Shown here piece by piece: positions 1,797 through 19,410 of a DNA stretch of 20,000 bases; positions within the stretch are counted from its first letter, which is position 1, and each line of letters opens with the position of its first letter. The notes under the pieces were generated by a model, which saw nothing but the letters and a program-made list of their open reading frames with translations, searched no databases and was not told the DNA's origin. This DNA comes from Neocallimastix lanati (nom. inval.). Its lineage: Eukaryota > Neocallimastigomycota > Neocallimastigomycetes > Neocallimastigales > Neocallimastigaceae. Location: positions 1-20,000 of the forward strand of contig JACVTC010000161.1 of the NCBI GenBank assembly GCA_016946835.1, in the 5' to 3' direction. The translations under genes and the position numbers were made by a program.

Positions 1797-3094
1797 TTAT
1801 TAAAGCTATCTCCATTATTATTATTATTATTATTTACATTAGCTTTGAAATTACTATTAATATTTGAACTAGTAGTATTAATATCCTGATTTATTCCATT
1901 AGAATTTCTATTAAAATTATTATTTCCAGTGGGAATATTATTCTCATTAAAATTATGATTATTTCTATTAGCAATATTATTTCCAGTAAATTTATTATTT
2001 TTATTAAAGTAATAATTACTACCATTAAAAGAATTATTGTAGCCATTTTTATTACTATTATTATAATAATTGTTATATTTATTACTATTATTATTATAAT
2101 CAAAATTATTATTATAATTATTACCCATATCATTATTATTCATATTATAAAGATTATTATTTCTATTACTACCATTATTTTTATTATTAGGACATTCATA
2201 AGCTTTATGTCCTACTTGTTTACATGAGTAACACATAACTGATTTTCTAGCTTTTGGTTCGTAGTTATTATAGAATCTTCTTGTATCATAAGTATTATTT
2301 TGTTGAATTTGTTCTACTCCGTGATAATAATTATTATTATTATTAAAACTTTTATTTTTATTGTTACTATATCTACCTGGTGTAAACATTCTATTATTGG
2401 TGGAGTTTTCATTTATATAACCCATAACATATGATGACGCTTGATATGAATTATCTAAATTATTTCCATGTTCTCTTAAGCTCCTATAAATTGGATGATT
2501 TAATAAATTGTTATTATTTTTATTTATGTTGTTTTGATATACCATAACATTCTGAGAATTTTTGTTTGTTATAGTTCGTACTTCAGCTTTTTCTGCACGT
2601 TCTGCTACTTCGAACGCTTCTGTTAATGTTTTACAGTTGGCCAAAATTACTTGAGAATGTACATATACCCTATCATGTATAGCATTTAAATAATCATCGA
2701 CACATATTAATTTTTTATATTCCAAGTCAAGTCGATGATAAAGAGTTAAATAATTATAATTAAATCCTTTAATTGTTTCATTTCTTTTTATTTTTAAGGC
2801 CTTTAAAATTGAACACTTATCATTTTGAGTAATTTCTAAATAATCTTCAATGGCTCTCTGGATTTCTTTATATGAGGGAAACCTTTTAACATTATTTCTT
2901 GTAGTACATAAAGATTTTAAAAGGTTTTTTATGTCAGCCTCTACTGCGTTCTTTACCCAAATAAAAATTCTGTTTGGTTCCTCGATGTTGTAAATTTCCA
3001 TAACATTTTTGAAATCTTCTATCCAAGAATCTATGTCCTTACCATAATTTGCTAAGTATGGTAAGTCTCTTCTAATTTTCGAAGCGTCCGCCAT
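1787..3094 (-). CDS. Retrotransposon Gag (capsid/nucleocapsid) of element 1, 435 aa
   Basis: This is the structural polyprotein of the retrotransposon particle. Residues about 10-175 are a helical, charged capsid-like domain shared with the Gags at 11665 and 15438. Common landmarks are LPxL near residue 11, a D-I-x-x-W motif near 20-24, a YLEIT motif near 85-89, LKALKI near 98, and a DDY.N.I..R stretch near 133-142. A CCHC zinc knuckle (C288, C291, H296, C301; bases 2192-2233) would bind the RNA genome. From about residue 185 onward the protein is largely Asn, encoded mostly by AAT, around and after the knuckle. The ATG at 3094 begins the conserved domain and lies in an A-rich context. The stop TAA directly follows the TTA AAC slippery codons. 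The protein probably acts in cytoplasmic virus-like particles. Confidence 0.92.
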   Translation of the reverse strand: MADASKIRRDLPYLANYGKDIDSWIEDFKNVMEIYNIEEPNRIFIWVKNAVEADIKNLLKSLCTTRNNVKRFPSYKEIQRAIEDYLEITQNDKCSILKALKIKRNETIKGFNYNYLTLYHRLDLEYKKLICVDDYLNAIHDRVYVHSQVILANCKTLTEAFEVAERAEKAEVRTITNKNSQNVMVYQNNINKNNNNLLNHPIYRSLREHGNNLDNSYQASSYVMGYINENSTNNRMFTPGRYSNNKNKSFNNNNNYYHGVEQIQQNNTYDTRRFYNNYEPKARKSVMCYSCKQVGHKAYECPNNKNNGSNRNNNLYNMNNNDMGNNYNNNFDYNNNSNKYNNYYNNSNKNGYNNSFNGSNYYFNKNNKFTGNNIANRNNHNFNENNIPTGNNNFNRNSNGINQDINTTSSNINSNFKANVNNNNNNNGDSFNNLN

Positions 3095-4100: not shown

Positions 4101-4120
4101 CACGCCCGGATTCTCCACCA
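4101..4120 (-). promoter_or_regulatory. Primer-binding site of element 1
   Basis: On the - strand the sequence TGGTGGAGAATCCGGGCGTG starts four bases after the LTR end (CGTATCA). It begins with TGG, the complement of a tRNA CCA tail. The same 20 nt occur at 15218-15237 in element 3. The implied primer 3' end is CCCGGATTCTCCA plus CCA. It does not match any tRNA in this window beyond the first nine bases (tRNA-Trp), so the primer tRNA is unidentified. Confidence 0.8.
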
Positions 4121-4124
4121 TTTT

Positions 4125-4743
4125 TGATACGATATTTTATTAAATACCGTATATGTTAGTTGGGCGTTTGTGCAAAAGGGAATTACTCCAAGAATATTAT
4201 ATTACAATAATTATATTTACTTTTTAGTTATTTATCTTTTATTATTTTATTTATTATATTTTATCATAAAAAAAAAAAATACATGTTTTATTATTATTCC
4301 TTAAAAAAAAAGAAAATATTTATTTATAAATTATTTTCATAATTATATTTTTTACTAATTTTATAAATTTTATTTATCGAAACACTAAAATTAATTAATA
4401 AATATAAATATTCATAACTTTTTACTTATAACTATTAATTCATCTTGTTTAACATTATTTAAAAATTATTTTAATATTAACATCCATTTAATTAAACATT
4501 CAATCTCCGTTATAATTAATATAACTAATTTTACTATATTATCAACAATTCTTTTAATATTTTTAATATTATTATTTAATTTAATATTTTAATAATTAAT
4601 AATAATAAATTGTCTTTAATAATATATTAATAATATATTTTAAGATTCATTATATAAAATTAATTTTTAATAAATATTTATATTAATAATTTTTCTAAAT
4701 AATTTTTCTATTATTTTCTATTATTTTTACTGGACATGCATCA
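4125..4743 (-). repeat. 5' LTR of element 1 (LTR family 1, 619 bp)
   Basis: On the - strand it begins TGATGCATGTCC and ends ATATCGTATCA, with TG...CA ends and TGAT/ATCA inverted termini. A near-identical copy in opposite orientation lies at 14127-14741. Its last bases (AATAAAATATCGTATCA) are shared with LTR family 2. The boundary by the tRNA is fixed by the second copy, and the inner boundary by the primer-binding site. Confidence 0.9.
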
Positions 4744-4758
4744 TTAAAAATCAAAGAA

Positions 4759-4830
4759 GGAGGGTTGGCGCAACGGTAGCGCGTCCGCCTCCAGAGCGGA
4801 AGGTTGGGTGTTCGAATCACTCACTCTCCA
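4759..4830 (+). tRNA. tRNA-Trp(CCA), copy 1
   Basis: The 72-nt gene folds into a full cloverleaf. The acceptor GGAGGGT pairs with ACTCTCC (one G-U). The D stem is GCGC/GCGC. The anticodon stem TCCGC/GCGGA encloses loop CTCCAGA, so the anticodon is CCA. The T arm is GGGTG-TTCGAAT-CACTC and the discriminator base is A. No intron is present. T runs begin at 4833 and serve as Pol III terminator. Fifteen bases upstream is the edge of element 1. Confidence 0.97.
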
Positions 4831-5457
4831 AATTTTATTTTTTAAATTTTTATTTTTTTTTTTTTAAAAATTTTTTTTTTTTTATTTTCTTTTTTTTTTT
4901 TTTTTTTTTTGAGGTCTTTTTTTTCGTTTCGTCTTGTCACCTTACTGATAAGGATAAGAATAAAGATTTTTTTTTAACTTTTTATTTTTATTCATGTTCT
5001 ATTCTCCCCTCTCTTTCTCTATCTTTAATTAAAAAAAAAAAAAAGTTTATGTATGTATATATATAATACCATGGCATTGTGTTTGCTTTTAAATTTTTTT
5101 TTTTTTTAAATTTGATTTTTTTTTTCAAATTTTGATTTTTTTTTTTTATTGAAGAATGTAATCTATTAGCCATGGGATATACATGCTCAAAGGAAAAAAA
5201 AAAAAAGAAAAAAAAAAGAGGGGAAGTCATCAATACAATTATTAAATTTCTAAAATGTATTGACAATCGAAAGAAAAAAAAGATATTTTTTTTTTCTTTT
5301 GTTTAAAAAGGGACAAAGGTCAAAAATATAGTAATAAAATAATAAATATACGTATAAGTATTAAATTATAAGTATATATATATATATAAAAACCTATAAT
5401 AATAAAAAAAAAGTTGAAAAAAAAAAAAAAAAATTGAAATTAAAAATTAAAAGTAGA
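4831..5457. other. Spacer between tRNA-Trp and tRNA-Cys, copy 1; no gene recognised
   Basis: The spacer is mostly T- and A-runs, with a few higher-complexity islands. One island (about 4910-4966) carries a short CCTTA-CTGA-TAAGG hairpin followed by a T run. Another pair contains CCATGG in opposite context (about 5070 and 5170), and one has AATACA...TGTATT inverted arms (about 5232-5261). The same islands occur at 13298-13942, but the copies are a recent duplication, so this is not evidence of selection. A Phe/Lys-rich reading frame here is homopolymer noise. Confidence 0.6.
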
Positions 5458-5529
5458 AGGGGCGTTCCGGATTTGAACCGAAGACCTATTGATCTGCAGT
5501 CAATTGCTCTACCGCTGAGCTAACACCCC
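5458..5529 (-). tRNA. tRNA-Cys(GCA), copy 1
   Basis: The 72-nt cloverleaf is on the - strand. The acceptor GGGGTGT pairs with ACGCCCC, and the discriminator is U, as usual for Cys. The D stem is GCTC/GAGC. The anticodon stem ATTGA/TCAAT encloses loop CTGCAGA, giving anticodon GCA. The T arm is TTCGG-TTCAAAT-CCGGA, with C56 intact. It lies 14 nt after tRNA-Ser with no T run between. TTTT tracts follow it on the - strand (for example 5452-5449), so the pair is probably one dicistronic Pol III transcript. Confidence 0.97.
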
Positions 5530-5543
5530 TATCAATATTGAAG

Positions 5544-5625
5544 CGTCAGCTGCAGGGTTTGAACCTGCGCGGGCAGAGCCCACCAGATTTCAAGTCTGAC
5601 TCCTTAACCACTCGGACAAACTGAC
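5544..5625 (-). tRNA. tRNA-Ser(UGA), copy 1
   Basis: The 82-nt class II tRNA is on the - strand. The acceptor GTCAGTT pairs with AGCTGAC, and the discriminator is G. The anticodon stem TCAGA/TCTGG encloses loop CTTGAAA, giving anticodon TGA. A long GC-rich variable arm (GGGC...GCCC) and T arm GCAGG-TTCAAAC-CCTGC support Ser. It is first in the Ser-Cys pair. The first insertion upstream begins 14 nt from its 5' end, at 5640. Confidence 0.97.
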
Positions 5626-5639
5626 TACTTCAATATTTC

Positions 5640-6647
5640 TGGTAAAGAATGAATTAATAACCTTTATTTTATTATTAATAATTCTTTACTAAATTGTACT
5701 TTCCTATATTCTTGATAACCTAAACTTAATAATAAAATTTAATTTATTTTGATATAAATTAATTTTAACTTGTAAATAATGTAAATAAATTTTAATTAAT
5801 TATTTTATTGTTATATTATTAAATATATGTATATTAAAATACAATTGTAAATATTAAAATTATACTTTTAAGATACTAAACTATTAAAACTATTAATTAA
5901 ATATTATTATAAAAATTATTATAAAATTATTAAAATTATTAATTAAATATTATTATAAAAATTATTATAAATTATTAATATTATAAAATTATTAAAATTA
6001 TTAAATATTATTATAAAAATTTATTTATTATAACTATTAAATATTATTATAAAATTATTAAGATTATTAATTAAATTTATTATTAAAAATTATTATTAAA
6101 AATTATTACTTATTATAAAAATTATTATTTAAATATTATCAAATTTATTAATTAAATATTATAAAAATTTTATTTTATTTTGAAAATAATTACAAGTATT
6201 ATTTAAAATAATTAAAGATTATTAAATTTATTATATTAATCTTTAAAAACAATTTATTTAACTTAAAAATATCAAAGAAAATAGTAAAAACTATTTTCTA
6301 TATATTTATTTTATAATTATTTTTAATTAAATTATATTTGAATATTATATTATTATATTTATAAAAATTAAAACAAAAATGAATTATTGATATAAAATTA
6401 ATTCAATAATTCTATAAAATTACTTAAATTATAAACAATTAATTATACTTTAAATTTATAAAAAAATATAAATATTGTAACAATTTCTTAAAAATTAATA
6501 TGTGTACTTTAAATAATAAAATTTTATATTAATAAAAAAAATAAATAACTTTTAATAAAGAATTATTTTTTTTAAAATCAAAGCAGGGTAATACCCGTCC
6601 CCCCCTGCTTGATTTTAAATATCTAAGTGTCAACCTCGAGTCTACCA
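5640..6647. mobile_element. Insertion W: LTR-like element, 1008 bp, target duplication TTTC
   Basis: It starts TGGTAAAG and ends AGTCTACCA, so the termini form TGGTA/TACCA. The 4-bp TTTC at 5636-5639 is repeated at 6648-6651, after which the native GC resumes, giving TATTTCGC as in cassette copy 2. A large stem-loop (GTAAAGAAT 5642-5650 with ATTCTTTAC 5681-5689, extended by ATTAATAA/TTATTAAT) follows the TG. There is no reading frame of note. The interior (about 5700-6560) is almost purely A/T with degenerate AATTATTATAAA repeats. It is probably a solo LTR of an uncharacterised family. Orientation is unknown. Confidence 0.66.
6571..6619. other. GC-containing hairpin near the end of insertion W
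   Basis: TTTAAAATCA-A-AGCAGGG (6571-6588) pairs with CCCTGCT-TGATTTTAAA (6603-6619), leaving one bulged base, around a loop that can itself fold as GGGTAATACCC. It stands out in surrounding A/T-only DNA. Its function is unknown. Confidence 0.7.
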
Positions 6648-6653
6648 TTTCGC

Positions 6654-7564
6654 TGTAATAATTCTATTAAGAACTAACTCAAAATAGAATTATTAACTAC
6701 AACTTAACGACTAATTCATTAAGTTGAGAAAATAAAATAAAATAAATTTTTTTTACCTTTAATGTAGAGTTTATTATAAAATTAATTATAATAATAACAC
6801 AAAATGTAAGAGAAGAATTGTTTGTATAAATTGATCTTAAAAATATGTTTTTGAATAAAATATTTTTATTAATTTATTAAAGTTAAAAATATAAAAATGT
6901 TACTATTATAACTATGTTTTTTATAATAATAACTCTTGATTTCTCAAAGAGAACTCAAGAGCCTTATTTATATTTTTTTATGAAAATAAGGTTAAATAAG
7001 AAAGGGTTTTCTAATCTTAACAAATCTCTTATCTAGGAAAAGATTAGATAGAAAAACCTAGATAAGTTTTCGATTGATATTCTATCCATATCGATCATCG
7101 CATTAATTAAGTAAAACCGATTACTTCTAAAAAGTAATTGGAAAAAATCTTAATTAACCGATTTTCCAATCTAATGATCGAAAATAAAAGAATAAAATAA
7201 TAAAGGATATTTCGATCATATAATTTATCCTTATATTAAAAATATAAAATTAAATAGTTAATAAAATACAGAATACATTATAAAATACAGAATACATTAT
7301 AAAATACAGAATACATTATAAAATACAGAATACATTATAAAATACAGAATACAATACAAAATACATTAGTTACAGTAGAGAATTTAGCATATTGTAAATA
7401 TATTATTTAAAATTAATTAAATAAATTTTGTTAAATTAATGAATATTTAAAATTAAATTAAATAAATTTAATAAATATTATACGTAATTAAATAAAGTTA
7501 TAGTTATAATAACTTAACTAAGAAAATATAATTATTTGCTAACAAATAATTATAGATTCTTACA
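6654..7564. mobile_element. Insertion X: LTR-like element, 911 bp, target duplication TTCGC
   Basis: It starts TGTAATAATTC and ends GATTCTTACA, so termini are TGTAA/TTACA. TTCGC at 6649-6653 is repeated at 7565-7569. A 13-bp perfect stem (6656-6668 with 6683-6695) follows the TG. Further stems include CAACTTAA/TTAAGTTG (6700-6726), CTCTTGA-TTCTC/GAGAA-TCAAGAG (6933-6961), CCTTATTT/AAATAAGG (6962-6991), CTTATCTAGG/CCTAGATAAG (7028-7066), nested stems within 7092-7180, and AAGGATA/TATCCTT (7203-7232). It codes for nothing visible. It is probably a solo LTR or a structured short element. Confidence 0.62.
7263..7370. repeat. 19-bp minisatellite
   Basis: The unit AAAATACAGAATACATTAT repeats with starts at 7263, 7282, 7301, 7320 and 7339, followed by a degenerate partial unit. 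It lies inside insertion X. Confidence 0.92.
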
Positions 7565-7569
7565 TTCGC

Positions 7570-8031
7570 TGATACGTAACCACTATAAATATAATATTTA
7601 GGTAGATTCTTTAGGTTAAAGAAATACTTAAATATTATTGGTCAATAATAATTTTAGAATAATATATATAATTTTAGAATAATTATTAAACGGGGAATTC
7701 TTTTATTTATAAGTTTATACTTATGATAAATTAATTCATATAAATAGCTATTTTATATTTTATTTTAGTATAGTTAAAAAGAGATATTATATATATTTGA
7801 GATAATTAATTATAATATTTATATAAGAGAGTAATAATAATAATTTATGTAATAATTAATAATTAATAATAAATAAAGAGAACATTAAAAAGATATATTT
7901 ATTACTTTATTTTGTATTATTGTATGTGTTATTTCTAATTAATATTAGAATATATTATTTTATCATAATTCCTTATTGTCATTGCCCATAAATAAATATT
8001 AATTTAGATACATAAATAAAATATCGTATCA
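7570..8031 (+). repeat. Solo LTR A (LTR family 2, 462 bp), target duplication TCGC
   Basis: It starts TGATACGTAACC and ends ATATCGTATCA, with 7-bp inverted termini TGATACG/CGTATCA. TCGC flanks both sides (7566-7569, 8032-8035). It is homologous along its length to the LTRs at 10881-11363 (inverted), 14746-15213 and 17178-17645, but more diverged from the latter two. The absence of internal sequence points to LTR-LTR recombination. Confidence 0.92.
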
Positions 8032-8035
8032 TCGC

Positions 8036-8900
8036 GGTGAAATTTTTCTTATTCATTTTTTTTGTTTATTTTTATTTGTTTTTTTATTAATTATTAAAAT
8101 ATTAATACGAATATATGTTTTTTTTTTTTTTTTTTTTTTTTTTTTTGTTTGTTTGTTTTTTGTTTTAATTAATTTATTAATAATTCTAATATTTAAAATT
8201 ATTTAAGAAATTAATATTTACTACTACCAAATATAATTTAAAAGGTCTTTTTTTTTTTTTTTTTAACAAATTAATTCAAGGATTAGATTCTAAATAAAAT
8301 TAATTTTAAACTATTAATTGTTAAAATAATCACATTTTATTTTATATTTTTATATTATTAATATTATATTTTTATATTCTTATATTATTATCAATATTAT
8401 ATTCTTATCTTATATTAATATTTTATTCTTATATTTTTATGTTGTGTAACATTTATCTATGTGTATTAATTCATAGAATCATCACATGATTAAATATGTA
8501 ATTTTTACTATAAAAAATAATTATTTTTATTATCTTAAAAAAAATGAGTTCTTTACATTAATAAAATTTATGTATTAAATAAATACAAAAATAAATAAAG
8601 TTTATTATAAAAAACACACATACTTTTCTCATTAATCTTAAAAAAAAATAATAATTTTTATTTATATTGTTACTTTTTTTTTATCAAAATAATTAAAGGA
8701 TTAGATTGTAAATAAAATTAATTTTAAACTATTAATATTAAAAAAAAAAATAATTTTTATTTAGATATTTACTTTTTTTTTTTTTTTTTAAACTTTTTAT
8801 TTTATTAAGTAATAGGAATAGGATATATATTATATCCCTTTAAAAATAAAAAAAAAAAAAGAAGAAAGAAAAAAAAATTAATATCCAAAAAGTAAAAGTA
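8036..8900. repeat. Duplicated non-coding block, copy 1 (host flank upstream of tRNA-Ser)
   Basis: The block begins GGTGAAATTTTTC and matches 19330-20000 base for base over long stretches, with length changes at homopolymers. Copy 1 carries extra A/T-rich sequence around 8300-8690. The left boundary coincides exactly with the TCGC target site in both copies, so it is the original flank beyond the insertion hotspot. Long T runs occur at about 8120 and 8250, and a long A run at about 8930. No gene is seen. Confidence 0.85.
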
Positions 8901-8923
8901 AAAGTAGAATAAAAAAATTAAAA

Positions 8924-8975
<52 letters not shown>

Positions 8976-9095
8976 GTAATTTATAAATTAAAAAAAAAAA
9001 TAATATAAAAAATGAAGAAAGAGTAGTTAATAAATAAATAAATAAATGAAATGAAATGAAATAAAAATTAAAATTAAAATTAAGAAAAAAGAAGA

Positions 9096-9167
9096 AGGAA
9101 CATTTTGAAAATGAACCGAAAATTAATTCATCTGTAATCAATTACTCTACCTCTGAGCTAACAATCC
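9096..9167 (-). pseudogene. Decayed tRNA-Cys
   Basis: It aligns without gaps over 72 nt to tRNA-Cys at 5458-5529. Many positions differ, mainly G/C to A/T, including the acceptor stem, T stem and anticodon (GCA reads ACA). The acceptor stem no longer pairs. Its position next to a Ser remnant 14 nt away preserves the Ser-Cys pair layout. Confidence 0.85.
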
Positions 9168-9181
9168 TTTCAATAATGAAG

Positions 9182-9211
9182 CGATAACTGTAAGGTTTAA
9201 AACCAGCAATC
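9182..9211 (-). pseudogene. Truncated, decayed tRNA-Ser 3' end
   Basis: Only the 3' acceptor strand and T arm are recognisable by comparison with 5544-5573, with several G/C to A/T changes. Beyond about 9211 similarity is lost. Spacing to the Cys remnant equals that of the intact pairs. Confidence 0.75.
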
Positions 9212-10314
9212 CAATACTTTAGTTCTCCCTCTTTTTCTTACAACTTTATTTTTTTTTATAATATTCTTTTAATATTTTCTTAAGTTTAAATAAGTAATTT
9301 AAAATAGTTTAGAATAGATAATTAAATATTTTGAATTATTATTATTTTTAATAATATTTTCCATATCTACCCTAATACCTCGCTTTTATTTCATTTATGT
9401 TATTAATAATGAATAATTATAATTATTTTTTATATTATAAATTTATTCTTATCTTGATTAAAATTCATTACTATTAAATATAACTTACAAAGTATAAAAG
9501 AAGAATTATTAAATTCATTCATTATATTCATTATGTTTTTTGTAAAGTTATTGTGTGTATATGTGTATTTAAGTATCGAATTATTAATATATACTTATTG
9601 TGAAATAATTATATATTAATAATAATTATAATAAATAAAATAATATCGAATTATTAATATAAACTTATTGTGAAATAATTATATATTAATAATAATTATA
9701 ATAAATAAAATAATATCGAATTATTAATATATGTTTATTTCACAATAAGCTACTATCCTTATTCTTTTTAATTTTAATTAATTATTATTAATTTCTTTAT
9801 TTAATTAACATTATTTTTAGTTAGATAGTTTTTATAAATAATTGATTAGTAAGTTAATATTATATTAATTAAATGGGCATCCGATGATAGAAATTATTAT
9901 TATGTATAAATAATTCATGTAATTGAACATGTAACGCACCAGTGTTACTATTACTGTAATTTGTATTAATAAAAATTTTTTTATAATTAAAAAAAAAAAA
10001 AAACAGAAATAATTTAATTAATAAATTATATATTCTTAGTATAAACCCAGTCTAATATTAACGAGTAGTGTGAATAGTGCTGTGTTATATTCTTAAAGAT
10101 AGAACTAGAATTATTTATTATAGAATATTAAAAGTTTTTTCAAGTACAACTCGAATAGAAAGGTTTCAATCTATTTTAGGATTTTGTTTATTCATTTTTT
10201 TGTTAATGTTTTGAGATAATTTGGTCTTAACGAATTGAAATTCAGTTATTATCTTTACATTTTTGTTGTTTTAGTTAGCCGTAAACTTACCTTTTACAAT
10301 ATACATTTAGTTAA
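9212..10314. other. Intergenic DNA left of the tRNA-Trp copy 2 insertion site; no gene
   Basis: There are no coding frames of substance. Higher-complexity stretches occur at about 9870-9960 (with a GTAAC...GTTAC hairpin) and 10040-10310, but I recognise nothing in them. The stretch ends in TTAA (10311-10314), the target site of the next insertion. Confidence 0.6.
9574..9756. repeat. 70-bp tandem repeat with inverted end
   Basis: Units begin TATCGAATTATTAATAT at 9574, 9644 and 9714. The first two are complete. The third changes after about 20 bases to TTATTTCACAATAAG, the inverse of CTTATTGTGAAATAA found inside the earlier units, so the array ends in a fold-back. Confidence 0.88.
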
Positions 10315-10874
10315 TGGTACGTTATTTTTATATATTGTACCTTTTATATGATTTGGGGAAAGCAAGTTGTAAAATTATAAAATAATATATTCTAATAAAA
10401 GAAATAAATAAAAAAATTATAACACAAAATTAATAATAAATTTTTAATAAATAATAATATGTTACTTTTAAGTCTTTATTTTATTTATAAGTTTTGTTCT
10501 TTAAATAAGTACATATAATTTTATTATAACTTTATTATATCTTTAAATTTATATTTTAATAATAATATTAATCAAAATATCCTAAATATTTATTCACCCG
10601 AATAAATATTTTATAATTCCTATTCTAACTATTATATTCCTTAAAGATAATAGATTATTAAGTTCCTCCTTTATTAATATTTTATCTTTCACTTATTTTT
10701 ATACTATGATTTATCTTAATTCTTATTGGTTATCTATTAATTAAAATTATTTTTATTAATATTATAATTTTATATACTAATTAAACCTTATACCTATTAT
10801 AATAAAATAACTAAAGAATTATTTATTTTATTATATTTTTAATAATTTATTCTATTTTAGTGAGTAACGTACCA
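10315..10874. mobile_element. Insertion V: 560-bp element with 10-bp inverted termini and TTAA duplication
   Basis: Termini are TGGTACGTTA and TAACGTACCA, a perfect 10-bp inverted pair, flanked by TTAA on both sides (10311-10314, 10875-10878). A GGTAC/GTACC stem-loop (10316-10341) follows the first T. No coding capacity is seen. After removing V and the adjacent block 10881-13212, the TTAA falls 15 bp before tRNA-Trp copy 2, the same position occupied by element 1 at copy 1. TG...CA ends favour a solo LTR; a TTAA-specific DNA transposon derivative is the alternative. Confidence 0.72.
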
Positions 10875-10880
10875 TTAAAA

Positions 10881-11363
10881 TGATACGGTATTTTATTTAT
10901 GTATCTAAATTAATATTTATTTATGGGCAATGACAATAAGGAATTATGACAAAATAATATATTCTAATATTAAATAGAAATAACACATACAATAATACAA
11001 AATAAAGTAATAAATATATCTTTTTAATGTTCTCTTTATTTATTATTAATTATTAATTATTACATAAATTATTATTATTACTCTCTTATATAAATATTAT
11101 AATTAATTATCTCAAATATATATAATATCTCTTTTTAACTTTACTAAAATAAAATATAAAATAGCTATTTATGTGAATTAATTTATCATAAGTATAAACT
11201 TATTAATAAAAGAATTCTCCGTTTAATAATTATTATTATAAAATTATATATTGTTATAAAATTATATATATTATTATAAAATTATTATTGACCAATAATA
11301 TTTAAGTATTTCTTTAACCTAAAGAATCTACCTAAATACCATTTTTATAGTGGTCACGTATCA
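10881..11363 (-). repeat. LTR B (LTR family 2, 483 bp), acting as a 3' LTR
   Basis: It is the inverse of the LTRs at 14746 and 17178, with TGATACG/CGTATCA ends. On the - strand it is preceded by the same polypurine tract and hairpin that precede the 3' LTR of element 3, so it is the 3' end of a family-2 element. It begins six bases after insertion V, with AAAA (10877-10880) as a possible target duplication matched at 13213-13216. Confidence 0.9.
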
Positions 11364-11417
11364 AGACGCCCCCACTTAAATTAGACTTCGTCCCCTGAAG
11401 TCTCTATAACCATATAA

Positions 11418-11451
<34 letters not shown>

Positions 11452-11472
11452 GTTATTAAAATTTATTATTGG

Positions 11473-11547
<75 letters not shown>

Positions 11548-11594
11548 TTAAATTTTTGAATTAATGATTATTATAATTTTTGAAATTATTTTTG
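11364..11594 (-). mobile_element. 3' internal end of a family-2 element (polypurine tract, long homopolymers)
   Basis: It is an inverted copy of about 16970-17177: the purine tract by the LTR, the AGACTTC/GAAGTCT hairpin (11383-11403), two very long T runs (about 11425-11450 and 11484-11540) and the following A/T-rich tail. Homology stops near 11594. An AT dinucleotide run then joins it to a gag reading in the opposite direction. This is a rearrangement junction. Confidence 0.8.
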
Positions 11595-11597
11595 AAT

Positions 11598-11637
<40 letters not shown>

Positions 11638-11664
11638 TATATATAATAATTCAAAAAAAAAAAA

Positions 11665-12996
11665 ATGAAGATTAGCGAAATAGCTAAATTATTGCCACGA
11701 CTTGGTAGTTTCGATAGGGACATAGAATCATGGGCTGAAGAGTTCAATAGGGTAATGGAACTCTCAGATATTGATGACCCTAGAAAAATGTTTGCTTGGG
11801 CAAAAGAATGTGTTCCTGGACGATTAAAAGGAGTAATTGAAGATCTTAAAGAAGAAGATGAAGAGGCTGAAATGATCATATATCCAAGTATTACGGATAT
11901 TAAAACTGCCATTGAAAAATTTTTAGATATTACTCCTCAAGAAAAATGCTTTAACCTAAAATCACTCAAAATACAAAAGGGTGAATCAATTAAAGACTTT
12001 AACTGGAGATACGGTAAATTATACGGATCACTTACTCCAGAAAGTCAAGCATTTATTACTATTAATGATTACACGGATTCATTATTAAGTCGTCCATATG
12101 CTAGAAAGGAAGTAATAACTTCTCAACCAGCTAATTTAGAAGAAGCATTTAAAATAGCTGAACTTGCAGAGACTGCTTCTGAAATGCCCAATATAAATAG
12201 AAATGTCGTTATGTTTACCAATACTTATGGAGGTCTAAATTCTATTTTTCCAAATAATTATAGTAATAATTATAATAATAGAAATTATGACAATCCTAAT
12301 AATTATGAATACAATAATTATCGCTCTAATTATAATAATTATAACTATAATAATTATAATAATTATAATAAAAATAATGGTTATAATCATTCAAATAATT
12401 ATAATAATAATTATCGAAATTCTTATAATAATAATTATAATAACTCTATTAATAACAGAAATATAAATCATTTCCGAAATGGTTATAATAGTGGTAATAA
12501 TTATAATAACAATAATCCAAATTTTAACAACATGAATAATAATTTTAGCAATAATAAAGTACCCGGAATTAAAAATAATTTAAGAAATCAAAATTTTATG
12601 TCTAATAATATTAATCTAAATTGTTTTAAATGTCATCAACCTGGTCATAGGATGCAAGATTGTCCTTATACTTATCAAGAACTAGCTGATATGGAAGCTA
12701 CTTGAAGACTTAATAACAATAATCTCTACATTACAAATAACAGCAATACAAACAGAAATCATAACCTAAACAATAATAATAACTATGATGGTAATTATAA
12801 TATTAGTAATTTAAATAGAAACTCTAAAATTAATACTAATAATGTAAATAATTATAACTCAAATGGAAACTTTAATGTTAATACTAATTATAATAATACT
12901 AGTTATAACAGTTCAAATCCTAATCATAATAACATAGATCCTATTAATAATAACCAAAATTTCTTTAATAACAATAATCAACATTTAAACTTCTAA
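11665..12996 (+). pseudogene. Retrotransposon gag with one in-frame TGA, element 2
   Basis: The frame runs 346 codons to a TGA at 12703-12705, then stays open for 96 further codons to TAA at 12994-12996. The full frame would be about 443 residues, close to the 435 of Gag 1. The N-terminal capsid-like domain (residues 10-170) matches the other two Gags: LPRL, DIESW, FLDIT, LKSLKI, and a DY...LLSRPYAR stretch. Asn/Tyr-rich sequence precedes a CCHC knuckle (C320, C323, H328, C333; 12622-12663). The TGA lies just after the knuckle, in a region that Gag 3 continues through, so it is probably a nonsense mutation. The truncated 346-residue protein would still keep capsid and knuckle. No LTR in the same orientation precedes it. 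Confidence 0.85.
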
Positions 12997-13016
12997 ATGG
13001 GAGAAGGAATACTCCC
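12984..13016 (+). promoter_or_regulatory. Programmed -1 frameshift signal, element 2
   Basis: T TTA AAC (12984-12990) is in gag frame, followed by an 8-nt spacer and stem GGGAG/CTCCC (12999-13003 with 13012-13016) with loop AAGGAATA. It matches the signal of element 1 in heptamer, spacer length, stem and most of the loop, while surrounding sequence differs. Confidence 0.8.
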
Positions 13017-13091
13017 ATAAATCAAACCAATACAACTCTTTTAACTAATTCACTTACTGGAACAAATAATTTTAATTTTAAATTTAAATAA
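12984..13091 (+). pseudogene. Remnant of pol start in -1 frame, element 2
   Basis: The -1 frame entered at the slippery site reads L-N-G-R-R-N-T-P-I-N-Q-T, closely matching L-N-N-G-R-R-T-T-P-V-N-Q-T at the start of element 1 pol. It stops at TAA 13089-13091. The protease and everything downstream are missing. The conserved residues in this frame support it being the true pol frame. Confidence 0.75.
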
Positions 13092-13225
13092 AGAATATTT
13101 TAAAATTTAATTTTTTTTTTTCTTGTTTCCAAACTTATTTTTATAGTTATGTGTTAATATTTATTTTTTTTTTGTTTTGAATATCTTAGTGTTTCAACCC
13201 CAGCCAGTATCAAAAAACCAGAGAG
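13092..13225. other. Right end of the element-2 block and native flank of tRNA-Trp
   Basis: T-rich sequence leads to CCAGCCAGTATCA, ending at 13212, which resembles a retroelement CA terminus. The next 13 bases (13213-13225) lead to tRNA-Trp. Taking AAAA as target duplication, TTAAAA (10875-10880) joined to ACCAGAGAG gives 15 nt. That differs from the 15 nt before tRNA-Trp copy 1 (TTAAAAATCAAAGAA) by three transitions only. Confidence 0.55.
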
Positions 13226-13297
13226 GGAGGGTTGGCGCAACGGTAGCGCGTCCGCCTCCAGAGCGGAAGGTTGGGTGTTCGAATCACTCACTCTCCA
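13226..13297 (+). tRNA. tRNA-Trp(CCA), copy 2
   Basis: The 72 nt are identical in sequence to the copy at 4759-4830, including the CCA anticodon and all stems. T runs follow from 13300. It belongs to the duplicated cassette. Confidence 0.97.
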
Positions 13298-13942
13298 AAT
13301 TTTAATTTTTTAAATTTTTATTTTTTTTTTTTTAAAAAATTTTTTTTTTTTATTTTCTTTTTTTTTTTTTTTTTTTTTTTTTTAGAGGTCTTTTTTTTCG
13401 TTTCGTCTTGTCGCCTTACTGATAAGGATAAGAATAAAGATTTTTTTTAACTTTTTATTTTTATTCATGTTCTATTCTCCCCTCTCTTTCTCTATCCTTA
13501 ATTAAAAAAAAAAAAAAAAAGTTTATGTATGTATATATATAATACCATGGCATTGTGTTTGCTTTTAAATTTTTTTTTTTTTTAAATTTGATTTTTTTTT
13601 TTTCAAATTTTGATTTTTTTTTTTTTATTGAAGAATGTAATCTATTAGCCATGGGATATACATGCTCAAAGAAAAAAAAAAAAAAAAAAAAAAAAAAGAG
13701 GGGAAGTCATAAATACAATTATTAAATTTCTAAAATGTATTGACAATCGAAAGAAAAAAAAGATTTTTTTTTTTTCTTTTGTTTAAAAAGGGACAAAGGT
13801 CAAGAATATAGTAATAATTTAATATATATACGTATAAGTATTAAATTATAAGAATATATATATATATATATATATAAAAACCTATAATAATAAAAAAAAA
13901 GTTGAAAAAAAAAAAAAATTGAAATTAAAAATTAAAAGTAGA
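13298..13942. other. Spacer between tRNA-Trp and tRNA-Cys, copy 2; no gene recognised
   Basis: It is collinear with 4831-5457, differing by homopolymer lengths and scattered substitutions (for example GTCACC versus GTCGCC in the small hairpin island). The Phe/Lys-rich frame on the - strand at about 13461-13652 is homopolymer-derived. Confidence 0.6.
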
Positions 13943-14014
13943 AGGGGCGTTCCGGATTTAAACCGAAGACCTATTGATCTGCAGTCAATTGCTCTACCGC
14001 TGAGCTAACACCCC
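13943..14014 (-). tRNA. tRNA-Cys(GCA), copy 2, with T-loop C56 changed to T
   Basis: It is identical to the copy at 5458-5529 except that the T loop reads TTTAAAT instead of TTCAAAT. The base concerned is C56, which normally pairs with G19 at the tRNA elbow and is a key base of the B box bound by TFIIIC. Anticodon, acceptor stem and U73 are intact. The gene is therefore probably weakly transcribed or an incipient pseudogene. It lies 14 nt after tRNA-Ser, as in copy 1. Confidence 0.88.
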
Positions 14015-14028
14015 TATCAATAATGAAG

Positions 14029-14110
14029 CGTCAGCTGCAGGGTTTGAACCTGCGCGGGCAAAGCCCACCAGATTTCAAGTCTGACTCCTTAACCACTCGG
14101 ACAAACTGAC
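14029..14110 (-). tRNA. tRNA-Ser(UGA), copy 2
   Basis: The 82 nt match the copy at 5544-5625 apart from one base in the variable-arm loop (GGGCTCTGCCC becomes GGGCTTTGCCC). All stems, the TGA anticodon and the B box are kept. Retroelements begin 16 nt upstream of its 5' end (14127). Confidence 0.96.
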
Positions 14111-14126
14111 CACTTCTATATTTCGC

Positions 14127-14741
14127 TGATGCATGTCCAGTAAAAATAATAGAAAATAATAGAAAAATTATTTAGAAAAATTATTAATATAAATATTTAT
14201 TAAAAATTAATTTTATATAATGAATCTTAAAATATATTATTAATATATTATTAAAGACAATTTATTATTATTAATTATTAAAATATTAAATTAAATAATA
14301 ATATTAAAAATATTAAAAGAATTGTTGATAATATAGTAAAATTAGTTATATTAATTATAACGGAGATTGAATGTTTAATTAAATTGATGTTAATATTAAA
14401 ATAATTTTTAAATAATGTTAAACAATATGAATTAATAGTTATAAGTAAAAAGTTATGAATATTTATATTTATTAATTAATTTTAGTGTTTCGATAAATAA
14501 AATTTATAAAATTAGTAAAAAATATAATTATGAAAATAATTTATAAATAAATATTTTCTTTTTTTTTAAGGAATAATAATAAAACATGTATTTTTTTTAT
14601 GATAAAATATAATAAATAAAATAATAAAAGATAAATAAATAAAAAGTAAATATAATTATTGTAATATAATATTCTTGGAGTAATTCCCTTTTGCACAAAC
14701 GCCCAACTAACATATACGGTATTTAATAAAATATCGTATCA
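14127..14741 (+). repeat. Solo LTR of family 1 (615 bp), target duplication TCGC
   Basis: It runs from TGATGCATGTCC to ATATCGTATCA and is nearly identical to the inverted 5' LTR of element 1 (4125-4743). TCGC flanks it at 14123-14126 and 14742-14745. No internal sequence follows; element 3 starts right after the TCGC. The left edge is 16 nt from tRNA-Ser. Confidence 0.92.
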
Positions 14742-14745
14742 TCGC

Positions 14746-15213
14746 TGATACGTGACCACTATAAAAATGGTATTTAGGTAGATTCTTTAGGTTAAAGAAA
14801 TACTTAAATATTATTGGTCAATAATAATTTTAGAATAATATATATAATTTTAGAATAATAATTATTAAACGGAGAATTCTTTTATTTATAAGTTTATACT
14901 TATTATAAATTAATTCACATAAATAGCTATTTTTATATTTTATTTTAGTATAGTTAAAAGAGATATTATATATATTTGAGATAATTAATTATAATATTTA
15001 TATAAAAGAGTAATAATAATAATAATTGATGTAATAATTAATAATTAATAATAAATAAAGAGAACATTAAAAAGATATATTTATTACTTTATTTTGTATT
15101 ATTGTATGTGTTATTTCTATTTAATATTAGAATATATTATTTTGTCATAATTCCTTATTGTCATTGCCCACAAATAAATATTAATTTAGATACATAAATA
15201 AAATATCGTATCA
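14746..15213 (+). repeat. 5' LTR of element 3 (family 2, 468 bp)
   Basis: It has TGATACG/CGTATCA termini and matches 17178-17645 over its full length. A possible TATA box TATATAAAAG (14999-15008) and AATAAA motifs (about 15050-15059) could define promoter and polyadenylation sites. In DNA this AT-rich such motifs are weak evidence. Confidence 0.94.
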
Positions 15214-15217
15214 AATT

Positions 15218-15237
15218 TGGTGGAGAATCCGGGCGTG
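15218..15237 (+). promoter_or_regulatory. Primer-binding site of element 3
   Basis: TGGTGGAGAATCCGGGCGTG starts four bases after the LTR and is identical over 20 nt to the site in element 1, although the two LTR families differ. It would prime minus-strand DNA synthesis from a tRNA ending CCCGGATTCTCCA-CCA, which is not identified here. Confidence 0.82.
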
Positions 15238-15437
15238 ACAATAGCAAAATAATATGAAAATAATATTAATAAAATAATACGTCTATATAATAAATATTAT
15301 TTAGTATGTATATAAAAAGAATTTAATTAGTTTAAATTAGTTACTAATAATTATAATAGTAATAGTTATAATAATATTAAATTGAAATAGAAAATTATAA
15401 TAAAAAAATATATAAGAATAAATAAAATTTTTTAAAG

Positions 15438-16880
15438 ATGAATGTTTTTAAGATATTAAGTACGTTACCATTATTAGAAAATTATAATAATGATATCAAT
15501 GAATGGATAGAAGAATTAACTGAGTTATTTGAATTATGGAATATAAAAGAACAAGAAAGAAGATTTATTTTATGTAAAGAATGTGTAAATAAAGAAATTA
15601 GGTATGTTCTTGATGAATTAAAGGAAAAAAATAATCAGGTTCCTAGCTTAAAAGAAATAAAAATAGCCTTAGAAGAATATCTAGAAATAACATCAAGTGT
15701 AAAATATTGGAACTTAATTAATTTAAAAATTAATTCAAATGAATCAATTAGTAATTTTAATTATAAATACTTAAGAAAATATAATGATATTGATAGTAAT
15801 ATAAAGAAATTAATTACTGTTAATAATTATGTTAATTCAATCAGGTCCAGAATATATCCTTGTTTAAGAATATTAGAAGAAGAAATCGAAGATATAAAAG
15901 AAGCTATCAAATATGCAGAAAAAGTTGAAAGAATTGAAAAGAAATTAAATTTAAATTTATATAATATTTATAAGAATAATAAACAAAAATGGAATAATAA
16001 TAATTTCAAAATGAATAAATTAAATAGTAACATAAACAATAAGAATAATAAAATTATGTGCTTTAGATGTTATGAGTTAGGTCATAAAGCTGTTAATTGT
16101 AGACACACATTTAAAGAATTAGCGGAATTAGAAAGAACTGGAATTTTGGAAATAAATAAAAGAAGAAATTTTATACCTGGAAACCATAATAATTATAATT
16201 ATAAATTTAATTCATATGATAGAAATAAAAGCTATAATAATTATTATCGTAGAAATTATAATTTAAATAGTAATATTGCTGAAAATCATCATAATATGAT
16301 TAGTTTTAGTAAAAAGCATAATGGAAATAAAGAAATTTATAGAAATAATTATAATTTAAATAATAATTTTGGTAATAATAATTATAATAATTTAAATAAT
16401 TATCTAAATAAAAGTAATTATGATTTAAATAAAAATTTTGGTACCAATAACAATAACAGTAGTTTAAATGAGAATATGAATACAAAAAAAAATAGAATAT
16501 ACAATAATCATGGTATAAATTATAATATGCAAGGAAATAAAGATGTAAATATTGGAAATGAAATTAATTTCAACAATAATTTAAATAATAATTGTGTAGA
16601 AAATACGTTTAATTCAAATATAGATAATACTCAAGATAATATAATTGGAAATAATATAAATAAAAACAATAATGGATATAGTAGAAACATAAATTCAGTA
16701 GGAAATAATAGTGGTTTTAATAATAACAATACTAATAACAATAATAATTATACAAATAACGAAAATAAAAATGTTAATAATATTAACGAAATGAATTATA
16801 ATAAAAACAATAATAACAATAACAATAACAATAACAATAATAATAATAAAAATAATAATAATAGAAATAAAAAAAAATAA
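15438..16880 (+). CDS. Retrotransposon Gag of element 3, 480 aa
   Basis: This is the intact structural protein of the non-autonomous element. The capsid-like domain (about residues 8-170) aligns with the other two Gags: LPLLENY, DINEW, YLEIT, LKIN.NESI..FNYKY, and VNNYVNSIRSR. The CCHC knuckle is at C208, C211, H216, C221 (16059-16100), closer to the capsid domain than in the others because the preceding Asn-rich linker is short. It is followed by FKELAELERTG, similar to YQELADMEAT in Gag 2. Residues 250-480 are an Asn-rich tail ending in a short Lys run. There is no TTTAAAC signal at its stop, so no Gag-Pol is made. Its retention with identical LTRs suggests the protein is used, perhaps to package its own RNA. 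Confidence 0.92.
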   Translation: MNVFKILSTLPLLENYNNDINEWIEELTELFELWNIKEQERRFILCKECVNKEIRYVLDELKEKNNQVPSLKEIKIALEEYLEITSSVKYWNLINLKINSNESISNFNYKYLRKYNDIDSNIKKLITVNNYVNSIRSRIYPCLRILEEEIEDIKEAIKYAEKVERIEKKLNLNLYNIYKNNKQKWNNNNFKMNKLNSNINNKNNKIMCFRCYELGHKAVNCRHTFKELAELERTGILEINKRRNFIPGNHNNYNYKFNSYDRNKSYNNYYRRNYNLNSNIAENHHNMISFSKKHNGNKEIYRNNYNLNNNFGNNNYNNLNNYLNKSNYDLNKNFGTNNNNSSLNENMNTKKNRIYNNHGINYNMQGNKDVNIGNEINFNNNLNNNCVENTFNSNIDNTQDNIIGNNINKNNNGYSRNINSVGNNSGFNNNNTNNNNNYTNNENKNVNNINEMNYNKNNNNNNNNNNNNNNKNNNNRNKKK

Positions 16881-17015
16881 ATAAATAATTTAATTATGAT
16901 GAAGTATTAATAAATAAATAATTATATATATAACAATAATTTAAATTAAATTAATTCGAAATTTCAAGATTTCGAATTTCAAAAATTATAATAATCATTA
17001 ATTCAAAAATTTAAT

Positions 17016-17067
<52 letters not shown>

Positions 17068-17177
17068 CCAATAATAAATTTTAATAACAAAAAAAAGAAA
17101 AAAAAAAAAAAAAAAAAATTTTATTATATGGTTATAGAGACTTCAGGGGACGAAGTCTAATTTAAGTGGGGGCGTCT
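16881..17177 (+). promoter_or_regulatory. 3' tail and polypurine tract of element 3
   Basis: The tail contains a perfect 10-bp stem AATTCGAAAT/ATTTCGAATT (16953-16978, loop TTCAAG), long A runs (about 17023-17058 and 17090-17118), a hairpin AGACTTC/GAAGTCT (17138-17158), and AAGTGGGGGCG (17164-17174) three bases before the 3' LTR. The purine tract is the expected plus-strand primer. The hairpin and tract are conserved in the inverted fragment at 11364-11403. Confidence 0.8.
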
Positions 17178-17645
17178 TGATACGTGACCACTATAAAAAT
17201 GGTATTTAGGTAGATTCTTTAGGTTAAAGAAATACTTAAATATTATTGGTCAATAATAATTTTAGAATAATATATATAATTTTAGAATAATAATTATTAA
17301 ACGGAGAATTCTTTTATTTATAAGTTTATACTTATTATAAATTAATTCACATAAATAGCTATTTTTATATTTTATTTTAGTATAGTTAAAAGAGATATTA
17401 TATATATTTGAGATAATTAATTATAATATTTATATAAAAGAGTAATAATAATAATAATTGATGTAATAATTAATAATTAATAATAAATAAAGAGAACATT
17501 AAAAAGATATATTTATTACTTTATTTTGTATTATTGTATGTGTTATTTCTATTTAATATTAGAATATATTATTTTGTCATAATTCCTTATTGTCATTGCC
17601 CACAAATAAATATTAATTTAGATACATAAATAAAATATCGTATCA
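17178..17645 (+). repeat. 3' LTR of element 3 (family 2, 468 bp)
   Basis: It appears identical to the 5' LTR. It is followed by TCGC, then TG of the next candidate insertion. Confidence 0.94.
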
Positions 17646-17649
17646 TCGC

Positions 17650-18682
17650 TGATTTATACCTAATATTCTTAATCTACAAAAATTAAATTTTGTAGAAGTG
17701 AATAAAAGGATAAATACTGAATAAAATTGATTTAAGAAATTTTAAAAAAAATAAATATGTTTTATTATTAAACACAAAAATGTTTTATTAAAAATTTATT
17801 TTTATTTTAATATTAATCTTTATTTATTTAATAATTAATTTTGTTTAAATTAATAAAATAATTGTTAAAACTAATAAAATAATAAAATGAAATATTTATT
17901 ATTTATACTAATTTATTTTAAATTTTAATAATAAAATTGATTATTAATAACTAATAAAATATATAATAATTTATCAAATAATTAATAATCATAAAAATTG
18001 ATTATTAAAAACTAATAAAATATCTATAATAATTTATTAAATAATTAATAATCATACTTTTTGATTATTAAAACTAATAAAATATCTATAATAATTTTAT
18101 TAAATAATTAATAATAAAGAATAATTTATAAGAAATATTTACATGTTTTTATATTTTTCTTTGATTTTAAACTATTTACATTAAAAATAATAAAATTAAT
18201 AAAAGAGAAATAAAGAATAATTTATTATTAAATTAAACAATATTTACAATTAAAATGTTGATAAAGATGAGTTTTAAAATGTTATTTTAATTACAATTTG
18301 TTTATAAGAGTTGAGTGATAAAATAAATAAAATAATCATTATTTTAAATAAAAGTAACTTAAAAAATTATTTAACTATTTAATTTTAATTTTGCGATGTT
18401 TATAAGTTTGTTTATTTGTTATTTATAATTTATTAAATATGTTTATTATTTTGTTTATTTGTAGTTTTAGAAAAATATTATTTATTAATTTATTTTAGTT
18501 TTTAATTAAAATTATTAATGATTAATTAATTTATTATTATTTTATTTTAATTATTTTTATTTAATTAATTTTTCTTAAATATGGATTTAATTTTTTTTTT
18601 AGAATGGATTAATTCTTGGGTTAAGTTAGACAGAATTTGTTCTTTATTATTTATTTTAATTTAATAATTTTGTTATTTATCA
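17650..18682. mobile_element. Insertion Y: LTR-like element, 1033 bp, target duplication TCGC
   Basis: It starts TGATTTATACC and ends TTATTTATCA (TGAT/ATCA). TCGC precedes (17646-17649) and follows (18683-18686). A stem-loop with TCTACAAAA/TTTTGTAGA (17673-17696) lies near the start. The rest is A/T-rich with repeated AAAACTAATAAAATAT...TAATAATCA motifs at about 17940-18120 and no coding frame. It is probably a solo LTR of another family. Evidence is from ends and flanks only, as no second copy is in the window. Confidence 0.58.
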
Positions 18683-18686
18683 TCGC

Positions 18687-19325
18687 TGTTAAGGAATGAA
18701 CAAATAATGTTAATTTTATTATTTTTCATAAAAATAACTTAACCACTAAAATTAAATTATTTATTTCCTTACTTGGGGAACTTTCTTATGTTCTATTACT
18801 GCCAAATTATTACTAATATTAAATTTATTATTATTAATATAAATTCTTTATTAATATCAATACTTTATTATTAAAATTAATACTATATTATTAATATCAA
18901 TATTATTATCAATATCTAGTTTTATTAATATAATTTATTCTATCAATATTTTATTATTAAAGAAAATTTTATTTTACAAATATTACTAATACAGATTATT
19001 TATTATTAATAAAAATTAATATAATTAATAATGATTTAAAAATATTTTACTTAAATCCATGATCCTTGTCATTAAAATTAGTAATACTTCCTTCCAAAAT
19101 ACACCCTATTTATAATAAGATTAATAATAGATAATAATCTAAAATACTTTTATTTAAAAATAGTATAAAATTAAATAATACTCTATTACTAATAGTTCTA
19201 TAAAAGTAATAAAATTATTTTTAAAATATATTATCACTACAATTAATAATAAATAGTTTAGAATTTAATAATATGTAATAATTATTTATTATAATAGAAT
19301 AGATTATGAATTTATAATTTAAATA
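18687..19325. mobile_element. Insertion Z (tentative): LTR-like element, 639 bp
   Basis: It starts TGTTAAGGAATG directly after TCGC and reaches the duplicated block at 19330. A long imperfect stem-loop follows the TG (TAAGGAA 18690-18696 with TTCCTTA 18775-18781 and inner A/T pairing). The right end reads AAATA then TCGA rather than CA then TCGC. Either both have mutated or the boundary is elsewhere. It is non-coding. Confidence 0.4.
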
Positions 19326-19329
19326 TCGA

Positions 19330-19410
19330 GGTGAAATTTTTCTTACTCATTTTTTTTGTTTATTTTTATTTGTTTTTTTATTAATTATTAAAATATTAAT
19401 ACGAATATAT

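Follow-up and report, generated by a model that had tools for sequence, protein, structure and literature searches.

Stacks of LTR elements close upstream of tRNA genes in Neocallimastix lanati point to serial insertion by several Ty3/gypsy-type families

The closest described systems in which LTR retrotransposons insert beside tRNA genes are Ty3, DGLT-A and Tj1. According to the available part of one account (PMC8632968), Ty3 of Saccharomyces cerevisiae inserts at -2/-6 of the start, duplicating 5 bp, and its chromodomain acts as the ruler. DGLT-A, from Dictyostelium and relatives, is a gypsy-type element with a GPY/F integrase that has a short tail and no chromodomain, and most of its copies lie 10-34 bp ahead of tRNA genes; the same partly available source, by Spaller and co-workers, describes later elements in Dictyostelium at tRNA genes already bearing earlier ones (PMC5006619). 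Tj1 of Schizosaccharomyces japonicus is also gypsy-type and, in the part of PMC4600332 consulted, is placed 5-11 bp before tRNA genes, always in one orientation, and is said to have also struck 5S genes. The consulted parts of PMC5911963 and PMC10085805 held nothing closer than these three. A literature search, with most subscription papers outside its scope, returned no account of this kind in anaerobic fungi and none of stacks as deep as those described below. Serial insertion at one tRNA gene is already known from Dictyostelium, and what looks new is the depth and breadth of it here.

The window, meaning the whole stretch of 20,000 nucleotides that was analysed, is bases 1-20000 of contig C70 in an assembly of 199 Mb and 762 contigs, and its G+C is 17%. 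In it ARAGORN found two Trp-Cys-Ser cassettes and one relic Cys gene. Each cassette copy has LTR elements that stop 13-16 nt ahead of tRNA-Trp and of tRNA-Ser (Table 1), and the 4-6 nt between neighbouring stack members are consistent with target-site duplications. TCGC recurs at tRNA-Ser copy 2, standing before LTR1 and at the LTR1/element 3, element 3/Y and Y/Z junctions; the spacers at tRNA-Ser copy 1 read TTTC+GC, TTCGC and TCGC. The LTR1 copy beside tRNA-Trp copy 1 is 98.9% identical to the solo LTR1 beside tRNA-Ser copy 2.

Table 1. Positions of the tRNA genes and LTR elements in the window
Feature	Position	Strand	Remarks
Element 1 interior	PBS 4101-4120(-), gag 1787-3094(-)	-	contig start cuts element
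LTR1, 5' LTR of element 1	4125..4743	-	nearest LTR edge, 15 nt before tRNA-Trp copy 1
tRNA-Trp copy 1	4759..4830	+	ARAGORN
tRNA-Ser copy 1	5543..5625	-	ARAGORN
W, LTR	5640..6647	.	14 nt before tRNA-Ser copy 1; flanks TTTC
X, LTR, family with 5 bp duplications	6654..7564	.	edges and duplication counts
LTR A, solo LTR, family LTR2	7570..8031	+	followed by TCGC, then native DNA
V', LTR at tRNA-Trp copy 2	10315..10874	.	TTAA flanks; search query began 2 nt inside its start
V, mosaic at tRNA-Trp copy 2	10881..13212	.	nearest LTR edge, 13 nt before the gene
tRNA-Trp copy 2	13226..13297	+	ARAGORN
tRNA-Ser copy 2	14028..14110	-	ARAGORN
Solo LTR1	14127..14741	+	edge 16 nt before tRNA-Ser copy 2; TCGC both sides
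Element 3	14746..17645	+	TCGC both sides
Element 3 parts	LTR2 14746-15213, PBS 15218-15237, gag 15438-16880, PPT before 17178, LTR2 17178-17645	+	
Y, LTR	17650..18682	.	TCGC at either end
Z, LTR without 3' part	18687..19325	.	edge reading, family search

An earlier note on this DNA had proposed serial insertion just upstream of tRNA-Trp and tRNA-Ser in both cassette copies, and the edges at 13-16 nt with their duplication-like spacers bear this out. Reading of the edges also gave the stack orders it had proposed, namely, W, X, LTR A at tRNA-Ser copy 1 and LTR1, element 3, Y, Z at tRNA-Ser copy 2, where it had placed Z tentatively. It had further predicted an empty tRNA-Ser site, and such a site was found in two other cassettes, L073 on C147 and L075 on C256, where the place is unoccupied and the two flanks are joined, so that the insertion ends are not continuous native DNA. 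These empty sites align to the joined flanks of tRNA-Ser copy 1 with no length difference and differ from those of copy 2 by one base, which can be traced to the chosen cut point. Two of its descriptions need changing: the orientation of the elements is mixed rather than "head to tail", and "long-lived" is not borne out, since the two LTRs of element 3 are 100% identical and identity among the 30 best LTR1 copies is 99.7-100%. The stacking in two duplicates is real but is not peculiar to them, as many sampled tRNA loci of the genome have stacks.

The V insertion is composed of a reversed LTR2 with its 3' internal part, a forward gag (11665-12705) of another family, whose orientation opposes the LTR, and roughly 155 nt from the end of a third LTR. 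We rejected V as an ordinary family; its joint was absent from all 39 other places that were scored. Template switching or rearrangement is a possible origin of this mosaic. For W, the 40 other best matches in the genome are almost all full length.

The open frame of an LTR1 element on C303 encodes reverse transcriptase (RT), RNase H and the zinc and core domains of an integrase; its protease match is under the Pfam cut-off (22.3 of 26 bits). The order protease-RT-RNase H-integrase in one LTR1 element (L109, L110) is that of Ty3/gypsy elements (Metaviridae), as are LTRs bounded by TG...CA with a short target-site duplication, and the best PDB match of the Pol is Ty3 Gag-Pol, over RT-RNase H (E 1.7e-94). 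The C-terminal half of the integrase matches PFV integrase and not Ty3, and by eye it has GPY/F-like residues and a short tail. A Pfam search for a chromodomain in the LTR1 integrase gave no match, and that of Ty3 itself is known only from structure. Element 3 has only gag between its LTRs, and over the 240 residues searched its Gag is 98% identical to a Neocallimastix sp. 'constans' protein. Because it carries gag only, and its PBS and LTR end are common with LTR1, element 3 was probably mobilised in trans by the Pol of another element, as judged from its sequence. Five further LTR2 pairs lie about 2.9 kb apart, on C445, C412, C113, C187 and C107, which suggests a family of gag-only elements like element 3. 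A short pattern of the PBS common to elements 1 and 3 was present in 29 of 169 loci, in many at the LTR inner edge, and the pattern search over these 169 loci yielded no primer tRNA.

In all eight loci checked the 5' end of LTR1 faces the tRNA gene, so that transcription runs away from it; among LTR1 outer edges, a tRNA gene or relic is faced by 7 of 12 5' ends and by none of nine 3' ends. The elements resemble Ty3 in their gypsy-type Pol and in inserting just ahead of tRNA genes, where Pol III starts, the start sites here being predicted. They differ from it, as far as the available part of the account goes (PMC8632968), in that LTR1 and LTR2 duplicate 4 bp and not 5 bp (X, known from LTRs alone, duplicates 5 bp), no chromodomain was recognised, and many families occupy one site in deep stacks. 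With DGLT-A they have in common the GPY/F integrase as judged by eye, the short tail, the lack of a recognised chromodomain and the upstream tRNA targeting, a likeness in the way of working; DGLT-A has tens of copies in the part of the source consulted (PMC5006619), whereas here there are hundreds of candidates per family and multi-LTR stacks that reuse one duplication. Like Tj1, LTR1 is gypsy-type, lies close upstream of tRNA genes and keeps one orientation in the loci checked, but Tj1 is described in the part available as parallel to the tRNA gene (PMC4600332), in contrast to LTR1 with its 5' end toward it.

The pattern extends beyond the window to other tRNA loci of the genome. In eight cassettes (L001-L008), which include the two of the window and of which L002 nearly repeats L001, an LTR-like edge lies 12-18 nt before both Trp and Ser, and ten different ends occur among the eight. 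Genes were scored by a script that looked 8-22 nt upstream for a 26-nt stretch 75% identical to a recurring LTR end. Positives were 17 of the 17 Trp genes reached, 11 of 16 Ser (two more being the empty sites, L073 and L075, which match each other and were classed by reading and not as script positives), 8 of 10 Asn, 6 of 10 first-position Arg and none of 10 second-position Arg. With look-alikes removed these became 14/14, 7/12, 8/10, 6/10 and 0/6, respectively. Control windows ahead of first-position genes gave 5/46 at 30-44 nt and 0/46 at 50-64 nt. The Trp genes L003 and L070 are outside the script count; L003 was judged by eye, and its end recurs at the Ser gene L086. Asn L098 and Arg L103 score weakly (0.77), and the edge at L082 is at 10 nt. 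A stricter version requiring TG gave 7/10 for Asn and 5/10 for Arg, its three second-position Arg matches, at 24 nt, being the end of the Asn gene.

The Trp/Ser set is biased because the cassette query contained 144 nt of LTR1. The Asn/Arg set is 20 of 63 matches fetched on tRNA score alone, and its rate is therefore independent of LTRs: a recurring LTR end lies 13-18 nt upstream of 14 of the 20 first-position genes (12 of 20 under the stricter version). The second genes of the Asn-Arg pairs served as an internal control, and none of the ten has an LTR edge; with a neighbour a few bases upstream, such a gene probably lacks a Pol III start of its own. The fixed distance was also seen at Ser(cga), Thr, Ala, Gly and initiator Met genes. 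A genome-wide lack of enrichment 11-20 bp upstream of tRNA genes was one of the two results that the earlier note had named as fatal to its reading, and LTR edges are enriched there in both the tRNA-first and the LTR-first counts.

Among the 23 LTR1 and LTR2 copies with both outer edges, three of them rows of one repeated locus, the 4 bp duplication is perfect in 21. For X, five of eight copies show a duplication of 5 bp; W has a readable one in two of five (two of the five being inner edges) and Y none in five. Over all 41 copies 23 match at 4 bp, while shuffled sides gave a mean of 1.3 and a maximum of 7. The letters of the duplication vary between loci and are common within one stack, and therefore it is the place and not the sequence that is recognised; the 4 bp duplications of LTR1/LTR2 and the 5 bp ones of X mean that there are at least two kinds of cut. 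With LTR ends carrying 4 or 5 bp duplications, a fixed spacing, many families, empty sites and a Ty3-like Pol all directly observed, we consider it very probable that several Ty3/gypsy-type LTR families integrate serially at a place that the tRNA gene sets, some 12-18 nt upstream of its mature 5' end, at the predicted Pol III start. TFIIIB, or some other component of the Pol III initiation complex, would tether the integrase, and a staggered cut would spare the last 12-16 nt and leave a target copy beside the gene. The next element could then land at the same place, pushing the older ones outwards, and LTR-LTR recombination would give rise to the solo LTRs.

The pattern was also surveyed from the LTR side. 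From 118 outer edges of six families, 103 were left when look-alikes were removed and 102 when one inner edge was removed. TG stands at outward offsets 3, 4, 5 and 6 in 18, 38, 13 and 16 of these 102, and at offsets 7-39 in 0 to 10 (mean about 3). Another recurring LTR end adjoins 48 of the 102 at 3-6 nt and none at three sets of control offsets; five lie 14-16 nt from an intact tRNA gene, and four, judged by eye, adjoin a degenerate one. In 68 longer loci there are 63 LTR-LTR junctions, with spacers of 3, 4, 5, 6 and 7 nt in 11, 32, 8, 11 and 1 of them, and the reversed-end control on the same loci gave no such junctions. From coordinates alone, 15 pairs lie within 10 nt among 283 best matches of seven families, about 0.005 being expected. 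An LTR edge is correctly spaced before a B-box-like sequence in 11 of 60 LTR-first loci and on the wrong side in two of 60, both inside the cassette. Most LTR-first loci have no tRNA gene within 1.5 kb, and ARAGORN found none in six stacks read out to 3.5 kb in both directions. In one of these six there is an initiator tRNA gene that ARAGORN missed, 13 nt from a family Z LTR, so that the tRNA gene at the base was traced in only one of six stacks followed outwards. A different explanation is that elements are drawn to existing LTR ends, so that stacks grow anywhere once seeded and the tRNA gene matters for the first insertion only. The many LTR-first loci with no tRNA gene within 1.5 kb favour such attraction, as does the position of the young Z outside Y in the window, and the five stacks that reached no tRNA gene favour it too and count against the tRNA-set model. 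However, four of these five run into the inner edge of a long element and so continue beyond the stretch read, which puts the base of at least that many out of reach, and the tRNA-proximal distance is steady at 12-18 nt for ten LTR ends in eight cassettes, a distance that growth at the outer edge could not renew. We therefore judge attraction to LTR ends improbable.

Insertion might instead be loose, with selection purging all but the harmless copies ahead of tRNA genes. At U6 genes, where the upstream promoter DNA matters, LTR ends are almost absent, as this would predict: one of the four U6 genes above cut-off passes, weakly (0.77 at 7 nt, A/T-rich). Purging is unlikely, though, to confine insertions to a few bases and have one duplication used again and again, and near-identical LTR1 copies are already at these places, so that we give this explanation very little weight. 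That one stacked cassette was duplicated, or an assembly artefact multiplied a single event, is hardly credible, for though the cassette exists in several copies and near-identical places occur (L001/L002, L076/L078/L080), the LTR family at a given place varies between cassettes, and one junction type is found at tRNA genes and on contigs that are unrelated.

Other results count against integration at a place set by the tRNA gene: no chromodomain was recognised (though Ty3's too came to light only by structure), W and Y have few readable duplications, and four of the ten first-position Arg genes have no scored edge. Of the eight 5S genes above cut-off, five of which have one array spacer in common, a single one has an LTR-end match (0.77 at 8 nt), and the scarcity of LTR ends at U6 and 5S genes also counts against the model since a TFIIIB tether might be expected to target them more. 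Under the model the LTR adjoining the tRNA gene would be the youngest, and a time order within the stacks would follow. The best relatives of Z are 99-100% alike and those of Y 98%, and Z outside Y fits only if Y had already diverged when it inserted. Dating stack members by the nearest relative was discarded as unusable because the families keep diverged lineages.

A broader reading, for which we see the balance as even, is that most tRNA start sites are self-renewing landing pads for many LTR families of 4 bp and 5 bp lineages, that LTR ends and not native sequence precede most tRNA genes, and that a stack is an ordered record of invasion with the newest element at the tRNA gene. If true, Ty3-like Pol III targeting extends to anaerobic gut fungi, and these loci show how full a 'safe haven' may become. 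If stack position is time order, tRNA loci would date many families relatively, at once and without a molecular clock. These results raise the question of how Pol III initiation copes with an ever-changing upstream sequence, and of which part of the integrase gauges the distance when no chromodomain is seen.

At L053, L057, L061 and L152 LTR edges adjoin decayed-looking tRNA-like sequences, as if a tRNA gene can die while its stack persists. Between the two cassettes of the window, at 9094-9220, there are relic Cys and Ser tRNA genes, which suggests an older, decayed cassette copy. Among 49 distinct LTR ends most start with TG, 71% have A at position 5, and G+C is 0.34 in the first 15 nt and 0.17-0.19 in the next 45. 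A TATA-like box at a fixed offset inside these 49 ends, which would rebuild a TFIIIB site, was rejected: three 15-nt bins held 16, 15 and 18 matches, with no overall enrichment, although 10 of the 16 in the first bin fell at offsets 15 and 17. The 49 include a few sequences other than true LTR ends, and V' started 2 nt late. On C273, L062-L064 are three LTR1 copies at 8475 bp spacing whose two outer ends carry one 4 bp duplication, a tandem element with common LTRs. A first-look list of tRNA candidates in the genome, unscored, has 9278 entries, and in a single contig, C555, many tRNA-Arg copies of one sequence lie at about 170000-400000, often 0.5-1 kb apart.
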